Positions 2,372-29,945 of a stretch of DNA of 64,000 bases are shown one piece after another. The stretch lies in contig NZ_JAIUHG010000010.1 of NCBI RefSeq assembly GCF_020164955.1, positions 1 to 64,000 of the forward strand, given 5' to 3'. Within the stretch, counting starts at the first letter, position 1, and each line of letters begins with the position of its first letter. The translations under genes were made by a program, and so were the position numbers. The stretch is from Mesorhizobium sp. CA8. GTDB taxonomy: Bacteria > Pseudomonadota > Alphaproteobacteria > Rhizobiales > Rhizobiaceae. Below the pieces are notes generated by a model. That model ran no database searches. It saw only the letters and a list, made by a program, of their open reading frames with translations, and was not told where the DNA came from.

Positions 2372-3296
2372 CGGCGCCTCCCTGTCCACCGGTGCGGAAG
2401 CGCTCAAGCGCAATGCCGCCGGCCCGAGCGGATCGAAGCCGCGGCATATGCTGTCGCGCCGCAACATCTTCCTCTACGGCACGCTGATCGTCGTGGCGCT
2501 CTATTACCTCTTACCGCTCTACGTGATGATCGTCACGTCGCTGAAAGGCATGCCGGAAATCCGGCTTGGCAACATCTTCTCGCCACCGGTGGAGATCACC
2601 TTCGAACCCTGGGTGAAAGCCTGGGCGACTGCCTGTACCGGCCTCAACTGCGACGGGCTCTCGCGCGGCTTCTGGAATTCGGTGCGCATCACCGTGCCAT
2701 CGGTGATCCTGTCGATCGCGATCGCCTCGGTGAACGGCTATGCCTTGGCCAACTGGCGTTTCAAGGGCGCCGATACCTTCTTCATCATCCTGATCGTCGG
2801 CGCCTTCATCCCTTATCAGGTGATGATCTATCCGATCGTCATCATCCTGCGCGAGATCGGCATATACGGCACGCTGACCGGGCTGGTGATCGTGCATTCG
2901 ATCTTCGGCATGCCGATCCTGACGCTCTTGTTCCGCAACTATTTCACCTCGATGCCGGAGGAGCTGTTCCGCGCCGCGCGCGTCGATGGCGCAGGCTTCT
3001 GGGGCATCTATCTGCGCATCATGCTGCCGATGTCGCTGCCGATCTTCGTCGTCGCCATCATCCTGCAGGTGACCGGCATCTGGAACGATTTCCTGTTCGG
3101 CGTCGTCTACACGCGCCCCGACACCTATCCGATGACGGTGCAGCTCAACAACATCGTCAATTCGGTCCAGGGTGTGAAGGAATACAACGTCAACATGGCG
3201 GCGACCATCCTCACCGGCCTCGTTCCGCTCATCGTCTATTTCGTTTCCGGCAAGCTCTTCGTGCGCGGCATCGCCGCCGGCGCGGTGAAAGGATGA
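2364..3296 (+). CDS. sugar ABC transporter permease (MalG-type)
   Basis: This is the second membrane subunit of the importer, 310 aa. A GTG start at 2364 is preceded by GGAGG at 2351 and overlaps the end of the first permease. A cytoplasmic N-terminus of about 35 residues precedes the first membrane helix (about residues 38-60). The EAA loop (EELFRAARVDGAGF, then LPMS) lies around residues 197-225. The C-terminus overlaps the ATPase gene in an ATGA junction. The sequence resembles GtsC-like permeases. All four transporter genes form one operon. Confidence 0.9.
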   Translation: MADGASLSTGAEALKRNAAGPSGSKPRHMLSRRNIFLYGTLIVVALYYLLPLYVMIVTSLKGMPEIRLGNIFSPPVEITFEPWVKAWATACTGLNCDGLSRGFWNSVRITVPSVILSIAIASVNGYALANWRFKGADTFFIILIVGAFIPYQVMIYPIVIILREIGIYGTLTGLVIVHSIFGMPILTLLFRNYFTSMPEELFRAARVDGAGFWGIYLRIMLPMSLPIFVVAIILQVTGIWNDFLFGVVYTRPDTYPMTVQLNNIVNSVQGVKEYNVNMAATILTGLVPLIVYFVSGKLFVRGIAAGAVKG

Positions 3297-27411: not shown

Positions 27412-27945
27412 ATGACTGGATCGACGACGGCGGGGACCCGCCTCTGGACCCCGGGCGGTTTTCGCGAGGACGAGTGGACGCACGCCGAAAGCGCCGAGGC
27501 GCTTGCCGGCAATGGCCGTTTCATCCTGCCGCTGCAGGCTTTTCTCGGGCTGGATGAAGAAGTCCGCAAATCCGCCAAGGAGCGCCTCGGGGTGTTGCTG
27601 CAGCCCGGCGACGAACTCGACAAGATAACCGGCCTGCTGGATCAACTGTCGCTGGTGGCGCTCGCCTTCCCGGCCTTCAATGACGGCCGTTCTTTTTCCA
27701 AGGGCGAATTGCTGCGGACCCGGCATCATTTCAAGGGCGCGGTTCGCGCCACCGGCCAGGTTCTCGTCGACCAGCTGCCGCACATGCTGCGGCTCGGTTT
27801 CGACGAATTCGAGGTCTCCAATCCGGTGCTGTTGAAGCGCCTGGAGGAAGGGCGGACCGGCGGACTGCCGGTGTACTATCAGCCAGCAGTGGAGGCGGAG
27901 CCCAAGGGGCCGAAATATTCCTGGCGGCGCAAGCGCCCCGGCTGA
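27412..27945 (+). CDS. DUF934 domain-containing protein
   Basis: This is a 177-aa protein of the DUF934 family, the usual last member of alphaproteobacterial cysI-cysH operons. It shows LPLQAFLGLD, LVALAFPAFNDGRSFSKGELLR and ATGQVLVDQLPHMLRLGFD. The GRSFS and GQVL blocks are the conserved core. The start at 27412 follows TAGGAATTT. The gap of 99 bp from cysH holds no terminator, so it is likely cotranscribed. Function is unknown but tied to sulfite reduction by context. Confidence 0.88.
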   Translation: MTGSTTAGTRLWTPGGFREDEWTHAESAEALAGNGRFILPLQAFLGLDEEVRKSAKERLGVLLQPGDELDKITGLLDQLSLVALAFPAFNDGRSFSKGELLRTRHHFKGAVRATGQVLVDQLPHMLRLGFDEFEVSNPVLLKRLEEGRTGGLPVYYQPAVEAEPKGPKYSWRRKRPG

Positions 27946-27966: not shown

Positions 27967-27977
27967 TGGTCCGACCA
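27967..27977. promoter_or_regulatory. GntR (FadR/PdhR-like) operator candidate 1
   Basis: TGGTC-C-GACCA is a perfect palindrome. It matches the TGGTNNNACCA pattern known for FadR/PdhR-type GntR regulators. It lies 22 bp after the DUF934 stop and 170 bp upstream of the PfpI gene start. Confidence 0.5.
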
Positions 27978-28040
27978 GCATCGCGTATTTTGCCGGTCAA
28001 CTCGGCCCAGAATAGGGCTGGAACGCATGCTGCCTCGTTC

Positions 28041-28051
28041 TGGTCAGACCA
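28041..28051. promoter_or_regulatory. GntR (FadR/PdhR-like) operator candidate 2
   Basis: TGGTC-A-GACCA is the second copy of the palindrome, centred 74 bp after the first, close to seven helical turns. It lies 96 bp upstream of the PfpI gene start. The paired arrangement suggests looping or cooperative binding. No GntR gene is in the window. Confidence 0.5.
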
Positions 28052-28146
28052 CTTTGGCGGTTCAAGCTTTCCCTTCTGCCGACCTGCCCTTAGGATGGGG
28101 CACGTTATTTCGGGTCATGAATAATCGGCAGCTAAGGGAGGAAAGC

Positions 28147-28768
28147 ATGGCAGGCAAGAAGATATTGATGCTCGTTGGCGAGTTCAGCGAGGAGTACGAG
28201 ATTTTCGTCTTCGAACAGGCCATGCACGCGGTCGGGCACACCGTCCATGTCGTGTGCCCGGACAAGAAGGCCGGTGACGTCCTCAAGACCCTCATTGCAT
28301 GACTTCGAGGGCCACCAGACCTATACCGAAAAACTCGGCCACGACTACATCCTCAACAAGACCTTCGCCGAAGTGAACCCTGCCGACTACGATGCGGTCT
28401 ATGCGGCGGGCGGGCGCGGACCTGAATATATCCGCATCGACAAGCGCGTGCAGGCGCTGGTCAGGCATTTCCATGAGACCGGCAAGCCGATCTTCACGAT
28501 TTGCCACGGCGTGCAGATCCTGATCGCGGTCGACGGCGTTGTGCGCGGCAGGGAAGTGGCGGCGCTGCATTATTGCGAGCCGGAAGTGACGCTTGCCGGC
28601 GGCACCTATATCGATGTCGCCCCGACCGGCGCGCATGTCGACGGCAATCTGGTTTCAGCCAAGGGATGGCCGGGCCTTGCCGCCTTCATGCGGGAATGCC
28701 TGAAGGTGCTTGGCACTGAGATCCGCCACGGCGAAGCGCTGATGCGTGACGACCGCAAGGCGGCCTGA
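28147..28768 (+). pseudogene. DJ-1/PfpI-family protein, frameshifted by one base
   Basis: The first frame starts at ATG 28147, behind GGGAGGAAAGC, and reads MAGKKILMLVGEFSEEYEIF up to VLKTLIA, where a stop follows at 28302. The family continues with HDFEG, which appears in the +1 frame from about 28299 and runs to 28768 with AGGRGPEYIR and ICHGVQIL, the nucleophile elbow Cys. Deleting the G at 28297 restores one frame of about 206 aa. All expected motifs are otherwise intact, so the lesion is very recent or a sequencing error. PfpI proteins act as glyoxalases, deglycases or peptidases. Confidence 0.8.
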
Positions 28769-29209: not shown

Positions 29210-29845
29210 ATGAGCGACCAGGCAAAAGACGAACGCACGCCCGAAGATATGGAAGCCACCGCCCAGCCTTCCGGCGAGCGTGCGGAAGGTGGCGTCGACG
29301 GCGACTACGAAGCGCTCGTGCGGCTGCTGAAGGAAAACGAGGAACTGAAGGACCGTGCGTTGCGCACGGCGGCCGAAATGGAGAATTTGCGGAGGCGCAC
29401 CGCGCGCGACGTTCAGGACGCCCGCGCCTACGCCGTCGCCAATTTCGCGCGCGACATGCTGTCGGTTTCCGACAATCTGCGCCGCGCGCTCGATGCGATC
29501 CCTGACGAGGCGAAAGCCAGCGGCGACGCCGGGTTCAAGGCGCTGATCGAAGGTGTCGATCTTACCGAACGCGCCATGCTTTCGGCGCTGGAGCGCCACG
29601 GCGTGAAGAAACTCGCGCCGGAAGGCGAGAAGTTCGATCCGAACTTCCACCAGGCGATGTTTGAGGTACCCAATCCGGAAGTTCCGGCCGGGACCGTCGT
29701 CCAGGTGGTGCAGCCGGGTTATTCGATCGGCGAACGCGTGCTGCGGCCGGCGATGGTCGGCGTCGCCAAGGGCGGTCCGAAGGCGGCCGCCGAGGCGAAG
29801 GTCGAGCCGGGCCCGGTGAACGAGCAGGCCGAGAAGGATGCGTGA
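29210..29845 (+). CDS. grpE: nucleotide exchange factor GrpE
   Basis: This is a co-chaperone that releases ADP from DnaK; 211 aa. An acidic N-terminal tail (1-40) is followed by a long coiled coil with [20 protein letters not shown] and [10 protein letters not shown] (about 44-80). The beta domain carries [15 protein letters not shown] and [21 protein letters not shown] (about 140-180), the family signature. ATG 29210 is chosen over an upstream frame without GrpE similarity. hrcA, its frequent partner, is not adjacent here. Confidence 0.95.
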
Positions 29846-29847
29846 GA

Positions 29848-29939
29848 GTGAGTAGCGAATAGGGAATAGTGAGTAGGGGCTGATATTTATCTGCGGCTTC
29901 GTGCTATTTCCCTACTCATATTCGCTACTCACTACTCGC
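29848..29939. repeat. heptad inverted-array element A
   Basis: Four direct 7-mers (GTGAGTA, GCGAATA, GGGAATA, GTGAGTA) fill 29848-29875. After an unrelated spacer, inverted units of the form TAYTCNC fill 29905-29939. The block GTGAGTAGCGAATA (29848-29861) pairs perfectly with 29919-29932. The element lies between the grpE stop and the start of the TRIC-type gene, so a hairpin would sit in the leader of that gene or at the end of grpE mRNA. Confidence 0.75.
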
Positions 29940-29945
29940 TCAGCC

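Follow-up and report, generated by a model that had tools for sequence, protein, structure and literature searches.

A conserved pair of FadR-type palindromes is a probable operator pair upstream of a DJ-1/PfpI gene in Mesorhizobium

DJ-1/PfpI proteins are widespread stress proteins. In Mesorhizobium, a gene for one such protein follows a DUF934 gene, and two short palindromes occupy the DNA between them (Table 1), raising the question of whether this promoter answers to a regulatory protein and, if so, to which kind. A first-pass annotation of the 64,000 nt stretch of DNA analysed here (termed the window) had placed two 11-mers at this site with a start-to-start distance of 74 bp, and both are exact. 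It had also remarked that no GntR gene is nearby, which is borne out: no GntR domain was detected in the window, and the sole PF00392 match on the contig lies at C2:105983. Its further proposals, namely that the palindromes belong to the FadR/PdhR type and that a distant GntR protein acts on them, are taken up below.

Table 1. Features of the DJ-1/PfpI promoter region, numbered from the first nucleotide of the window.
Feature	Position	Strand	Remarks
DUF934 gene, upstream of the palindromes	27412..27945	+	Pfam DUF934, 1.5e-28
Distal palindrome TGGTCCGACCA, predicted FadR-type operator	27967..27977	.	exact match; centre about -131 from inferred start
Proximal palindrome TGGTCAGACCA, predicted FadR-type operator	28041..28051	.	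exact match; centre about -57 from inferred start
Inferred -35 element TTTCCC	28068..28073	+	CTT-21 bases-TAnnAT pattern
Inferred -10 element TAGGAT	28091..28096	+	same pattern; T, A, A and T invariant in the chosen 41 of 65 sequences
Second inverted repeat near inferred transcript start	28105..28124	+	TTATTTCG-N-CGAAATAA in relatives; in the window the right arm is changed
Ribosome binding site AAGGGAGGAA	28134..28143	+	conserved in alignments
DJ-1/PfpI gene, 5' part	28147..28302	+	ATG at 28147, premature stop at 28302; L009 orthologue continues ...KTSLHDFEG
DJ-1/PfpI gene, 3' part, other frame	28298..28768	+	Pfam DJ-1_PfpI, 1.8e-26; closest orthologues 99% identical here

The two palindromes are the only matches to TGGTNNNACCA in the window. 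Because dinucleotide shuffling of the window gives expectations of 0.03 for TGGTCNGACCA and 0.21 for TGGTNNNACCA, the pair exceeds what chance would supply locally. Genome-wide counts behave differently. Specifically, TGGTCNGACCA occurs at 7 places in the 6.16 Mb genome to which the window belongs (G000), exactly as often as its reversed control, and TGGTNNNACCA occurs 42 times compared with 123 for the control. Eight other genomes together hold 43 exact sites, against 67 for the reversed control. Since the count of the 11-mer is close to that of the control, its raw frequency offers no argument for function, and the case for function must be made from the pair and its conservation.

Two overlapping collections of promoters were used for this purpose. 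The genus set comprises PfpI orthologues from 61 genomes, with upstream DNA from 47 of these at an identity of at least 89%; TGGTNNNACCA is present at the proximal position in 46 of the 47 loci and at the distal position in 37. The second set consists of 80 named loci, nearly all labelled as Mesorhizobium, among which the proximal site is found in 78, the distal site in 55 and both sites in 54, while the reversed control matches 1 of 80. The distal site is therefore absent in 25 of these loci, and the proximal site stands alone in 24. Outside the promoter stretch (2601-3100), approximately 488 kb of the same 80 loci contain no match to TGGTNNNACCA. Because loci are shared between the two sets and the sequences have common ancestry, these counts do not represent independent events. 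Moreover, the flanking columns of the genus-set sites were taken from sites found by pattern, and so their 100% arms arise by construction; the unselected conservation figures are the proximal 46 of 47 and the 80-locus counts. A twin pattern with a gap of 55-85 bp was found in 34 of the 61 genus genomes, always at the PfpI locus; G008 has one additional match elsewhere. The reversed twin pattern occurs in 6 of the 61.

These observations leave little room for functionless chance palindromes. Such a reading would fit the chance frequency of the 11-mer in the genome, and it is also consistent with an unconserved copy of TGGTCNGACCA before a sugar-transferase gene (C1:67989; Bac_transf), which is present in 1 of 30 loci, our own genome only, and which we attribute to chance rather than to a link with exopolysaccharide. 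With conservation in 78 of 80 PfpI promoters and a reversed control in only one, however, this explanation is hardly credible for the pair itself. Of the two outcomes that the first-pass annotation had named as damaging to its proposal, chance frequency of the 11-mer is thus true across the genome but is outweighed by conservation, whereas absence from orthologous promoters is false, the pair being kept in orthologues.

The pattern of sequence change at the sites is informative. All 133 sites of the 80 loci retain at least one perfect TGGTC half, while the centres vary. In one sub-lineage of the genus both centres have changed (distal CGA, proximal CTT) and the arms have been kept. The DNA between the two sites aligns poorly. 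Fixed arms, variable centres and a poorly aligning spacer together form a signature of protein-bound operators.

The distance between the sites is also largely maintained. Among the 54 pairs, the spacing is 74 bp in 33, 75 in 7, 76 in 4, 64 in 3 and 65 in 2, and spacings of 73, 77, 78, 87 and 175 bp occur once each; 44 of the 54 pairs therefore fall at 74-76 bp and 5 at 64-65 bp. The spacings of 73, 77, 78, 87 and 175 bp mean that this distribution stops short of establishing strict helical phasing. It could be argued that the palindromes act separately, receiving two unrelated inputs and forming no co-operative pair, given that 24 of 80 loci carry the proximal site only, that the two centres differ within the sub-lineage described above and that a spacing of 175 bp is found in 2 of the 47 genus loci. 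We regard separate action as unlikely, because 74-76 bp is held in most pairs while the intervening DNA aligns poorly and because the same spacing recurs at the promoter of an M24-peptidase gene (see below).

The two sites differ in their distribution beyond the genus. Among 20 loci from elsewhere in the family, with genera as the search tool delimits them, 14 retain TGGTNNNACCA, in every case as one exact site. Of these, L081 and L084, which belong to another genus, also carry a near-copy, TGGCCTTACCA, upstream of the proximal site at a distance of exactly 74 bp. We take the proximal site to be the ancestral core of the arrangement, and the exact distal site, which is kept mainly within Mesorhizobium, is probably a later addition.

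Downstream of the palindromes, 45 of the 47 genus loci and 14 of 18 loci from other genera contain the pattern CTT, 21 bases, TAnnAT. We infer that these motifs are the -35 and -10 elements of a weak sigma70-type promoter with a 17-bp spacer; if this reading holds, the centres of the palindromes fall near -57 and -131. The promoter alignment used 41 of 65 references and left out L078, L083, L085, L090 and L093 of other genera, three of which do not have the promoter pattern, so that its invariant columns are flattering; the pattern was accordingly recounted on all 65 references. A sigma54 promoter served by upstream enhancer sites was also considered and set aside, as no -24/-12 element was seen by eye.

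A second inverted repeat lies near the inferred transcript start, between the promoter and the ribosome binding site. A loose pattern detects it in 64 of the 80 loci; the corresponding counts for the genus set and for other genera are 40 of 47 and 11 of 18. In several other genera it occurs even in loci that have no TGGT palindrome, among them L080, L082, L086 and L091, and in L050 it is changed on both arms. This repeat is possibly a second operator. Folding gave no account of it at the RNA level: RNAalifold placed no pairs there across 41 sequences, and single folds were not clearly above shuffles, although this is a weak test in which the folded stretch cut part of the left arm in 4 of 5 cases. 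Elsewhere in the window, the region after grpE (29845-29945) seems by eye to contain an extended, imperfect inverted repeat (gagtagcgaataggg ... ccctactcatattcgctactc) resembling a dispersed repeat element.

The first-pass annotation had named the downstream gene as PfpI. A DJ-1/PfpI gene is indeed present, but the copy in the window is split by a frameshift near 28290, as comparison with an almost identical orthologue shows. The reading frame is open in 79 of 80 relatives. The frameshift reflects either a strain that is losing PfpI or an assembly error, and in both cases the two operators are intact.

The same site is carried by several partner promoters. One of them belongs to a gene for an 84-aa protein (L066 6173-6427, corresponding to G000:C2:78172-78426), which has a conserved TGGTCNGACCA approximately 82 bp before its start. 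Of 30 loci, 28 have TGGTNNNACCA 80-83 bp upstream of the ATG, and in 25 the site is exact; one of the two loci without it is masked sequence. The protein matches no Pfam family, and 81 of its residues gave no NCBIfam match. Close homologues (at least 68% identity) are encoded in 31 of the 61 genus genomes, together with several distant paralogues.

At the M24-peptidase promoter, the two Mesorhizobium genomes checked both have a pair of near-copies with TGGY arms (TGGCAGGACCA/TGGCTGGACCA in our own genome and TGGTAGGACCA/TGGCTGGACCA in G004), with spacings of 74 and 75 bp, and the distance from the pair to the start codon is about the same as at PfpI. The recurrence of this pair at the unlinked PfpI and M24 promoters is, within the two genomes checked, the best evidence that one regulator acts on both. 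In two other genera, M24 is preceded by a single exact site. G163 and G171 each have two exact sites per genome, one of them at PfpI; in G163 the second site is separated by 26 bases from a downstream FCD-GntR reading frame that is followed by M24, and in G171 the second site lies before M24. One of the six sites in G127 also precedes M24. In each of the genomes G092 and G214, one site precedes a gene for an ABC-transporter binding protein homologous to that of our own M24 island.

That island, on contig C33, carries two TGGTTCGACCA/TGGTAATACCA pairs (L067 4732-4918 and 16669-16859), 176 and 180 bp apart, one upstream of an ABC operon, the other within a divergent isomerase promoter. A pair at the position of the ABC operon recurs in four other genomes.

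A weaker partner promoter is possibly that of mucR (ROS_MUCR), which has a TGGTCYGRCCA-type site approximately 240 bp upstream (L064 3000, corresponding to G000:C54:17999). Among 30 loci the site is exact in 15, reads TGGTCCTACCA in 1 and TGGTCNGGCCA in 12, is cut by a contig end in 1 and is missing from 1; these loci were picked with a DNA query that contained the site, which biases the count upward.

Which protein would bind these sites? The first-pass annotation had advised asking which GntR gene carries the palindrome in its own promoter. In our own genome this approach failed at the 7 exact TGGTCNGACCA places, none of which has a GntR domain nearby, but it did return one gene for the broader pattern: among the 24 of 25 FCD GntR hits that were checked, only in the case of the gene on contig C34 does an exact TGGTNNNACCA precede the HTH-coding part. 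In relatives, 32 of 33 exact sites away from PfpI were examined in eight genomes (the 84-aa site of G003 was left out), and an FCD-GntR gene lies just after the site in three: L318, L326 and L328 (internal ATG). When the reading frames of the 31 fetched loci were all scanned with a profile of seven GntR proteins, those of L318, L326, L328 and L348 included, GntR-like genes came up in three further loci, none adjoining the site; L323 and L335 were additions lying further from it. Among the FCD GntR proteins of G000 that were compared, none is close to the GntR protein of G163 (best 33%).

The FCD-GntR gene on C34 is one candidate for the regulator. It has a highly conserved self-operator (L063 2479; ATTGGTTGGACCATTGAACCACTT and close variants) and adjoins genes of the sugar-transport type. 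The self-site TGGTTGGACCA is kept in 29 of 30 orthologues, and the best NCBIfam matches of the protein are NanR, LldR and PdhR, all below cut-offs. Against this assignment, G016, G020 and G052 keep exact PfpI and 84-aa sites but have no close C34 orthologue (best 45-46%), indicating that the C34 protein is not required; furthermore, its flanks (ATTGGTTGGACCATTGAACCACTT) are unlike CTGGTCNGACCA, and its neighbours appear by eye to serve sugar transport. That this particular protein is the PfpI regulator is accordingly very doubtful.

Another candidate is encoded within the M24/ABC/sugar-isomerase island, at C33:15729-16445. This protein has both FCD and GntR domains and is present at 99% in G004, and its island holds not only M24 with the 74-75 bp pair but another two TGGTNNNACCA pairs. 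One of these occupies the divergent region ahead of a row of genes in which the GntR gene is third. Autoregulation is plausible. However, the island pairs have other centres and the wide spacing given above, no TGGTNNNACCA lies directly before the HTH of this gene, and the gene was not found in the fetched stretches of G127, G171, G092, G214 or G163. We judge it improbable, if still worth naming, that this is the protein in question.

In what is the main rival to a GntR regulator, the sites might instead belong to a TetR-family protein or to another dimer outside the GntR family. A TetR-type gene (TetR_N domain) stands directly before the ABC operon of the island with TGGTNNNACCA pairs in its promoter, and homologues with 60-72% identity accompany sites in L332, L344, L354 and L356 as well as in our own genome, whereas the C33 GntR was not seen in the stretches from those four loci. 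Nevertheless, FCD-GntR genes follow an exact site in L318, L326 and L328, and the core with its 3-nt centre agrees with the published consensus of the FadR subfamily. Also, the ABC sites, which often have TCG or AAT centres and are mostly 176-180 bp apart, may have a regulator other than that of PfpI. Ownership by a TetR-type or similar dimer is thus distinctly unlikely.

Two FadR-like proteins in our own genome, at C9:33892 and C27:2944, are further candidates. A GntR gene on contig C5 drew attention because it is paired with a PfpI paralogue (78%; L055 146-1483, G000:C5), but it was rejected as the regulator since its operon has a different conserved element: TATCCT...AGGATA is found before the GntR gene in all 7 aligned loci, and no TGGTNNNACCA with up to one mismatch was detected in 7 of 8 loci scanned.

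Taken together, the two palindromes are best explained as a conserved operator pair for one dimeric factor, most likely a GntR protein of the FadR subfamily (with an FCD domain) that is encoded elsewhere, and we assign this reading a probability of roughly 0.7. It draws on the position of the sites, their conservation, their fixed arms around a variable centre and the occurrence of the same site before another gene; the 74-75 bp pair before another gene takes the form of near-copies. The earlier proposal of an operator pair for a distant regulator accordingly stands as to class.

On this explanation, a GntR dimer would sit on each site, upstream of a weak promoter of the sigma70 type; the two dimers would share one face of the DNA, be separated by about seven turns and be in mutual contact. 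A small metabolite would then release or alter the protein and so switch PfpI expression. Dimer binding, the effector, the sign of regulation and the contact between dimers are all what we infer from the arrangement of the DNA. The placement of both sites upstream of the promoter would slightly favour activation or a looped repressor over simple blockage of the promoter.

The matching sites before a few other genes look like a small gene control circuit of a familiar kind. More specifically, one FadR-type GntR (or the TetR of the island) might join PfpI, M24, the 84-aa gene and possibly mucR in a small regulon, in which the 74-75 bp pair would be a lineage-specific loop switch derived from a single ancestral site and used at two unlinked promoters. 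We offer this wider proposal tentatively and at less than even odds. If it is true, a small metabolite-sensing regulon would span several rhizobial genera. The conserved operator pair provides a direct handle on the signal and the regulator, with M24 and the 84-aa gene as partners. This would still be one more GntR-type regulon, and the general surprise is moderate.

A search of open-licence literature with the site, PfpI, GntR, FadR, FCD and Mesorhizobium returned no report of this PfpI promoter arrangement. The FadR subfamily has been given the consensus TKGT-N3-ACMA, and double sites occur within it (PMC4494728). Both palindromes agree exactly, having inverted TKGT/ACMA arms with 3 nt between GT and AC. 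As in that subfamily, the arms are conserved around a free centre, in 78 of 80 loci for the proximal site and 55 of 80 for the distal, and exact copies precede FCD-GntR genes in relatives (3 of 32 exact sites). The assignment to the FadR type made by the first-pass annotation is thus upheld, with the difference that the gene here encodes a DJ-1/PfpI protein and is far from any GntR gene. The same 11 bases also appear in a predicted FadR-type site for a GntR protein of Mycobacterium smegmatis (PMC2018728).

Assignment to an individual E. coli protein is not sustained, as the outer bases of the PdhR, FadR and LldR boxes differ from those found here. The LldR box has the 11-bp core TGGTCNGACCA, with two boxes per promoter (PMC10272880), and both the core and the doubling are as at PfpI. 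In contrast, its AAn flank is absent at both of our sites and its nTT flank at the distal one: the flanks are CCT/GCA at the distal site and TTC/CTT at the proximal, so that the proximal right flank alone fits nTT. Furthermore, LldR targets lactate genes in E. coli, whereas the gene here is PfpI. The E. coli FadR operator AACTGGTCNGACCAGTT shares the core (PMC3626644). Its outer bases differ from ours, however, and we identified no regulator with a FadR_C domain. The E. coli PdhR box, ATTGGTNNNACCAAT, has ATT/AAT flanks next to the arms. The TGGTNNNACCA core is common to both systems, but these flanks are not seen at PfpI, where the core is preceded by C in 101 of 133 sites and followed by A, G or C in 132 of them. 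The comparison supports filing the two palindromes as predicted FadR-subfamily operators by class, as neither LldR nor PdhR boxes.
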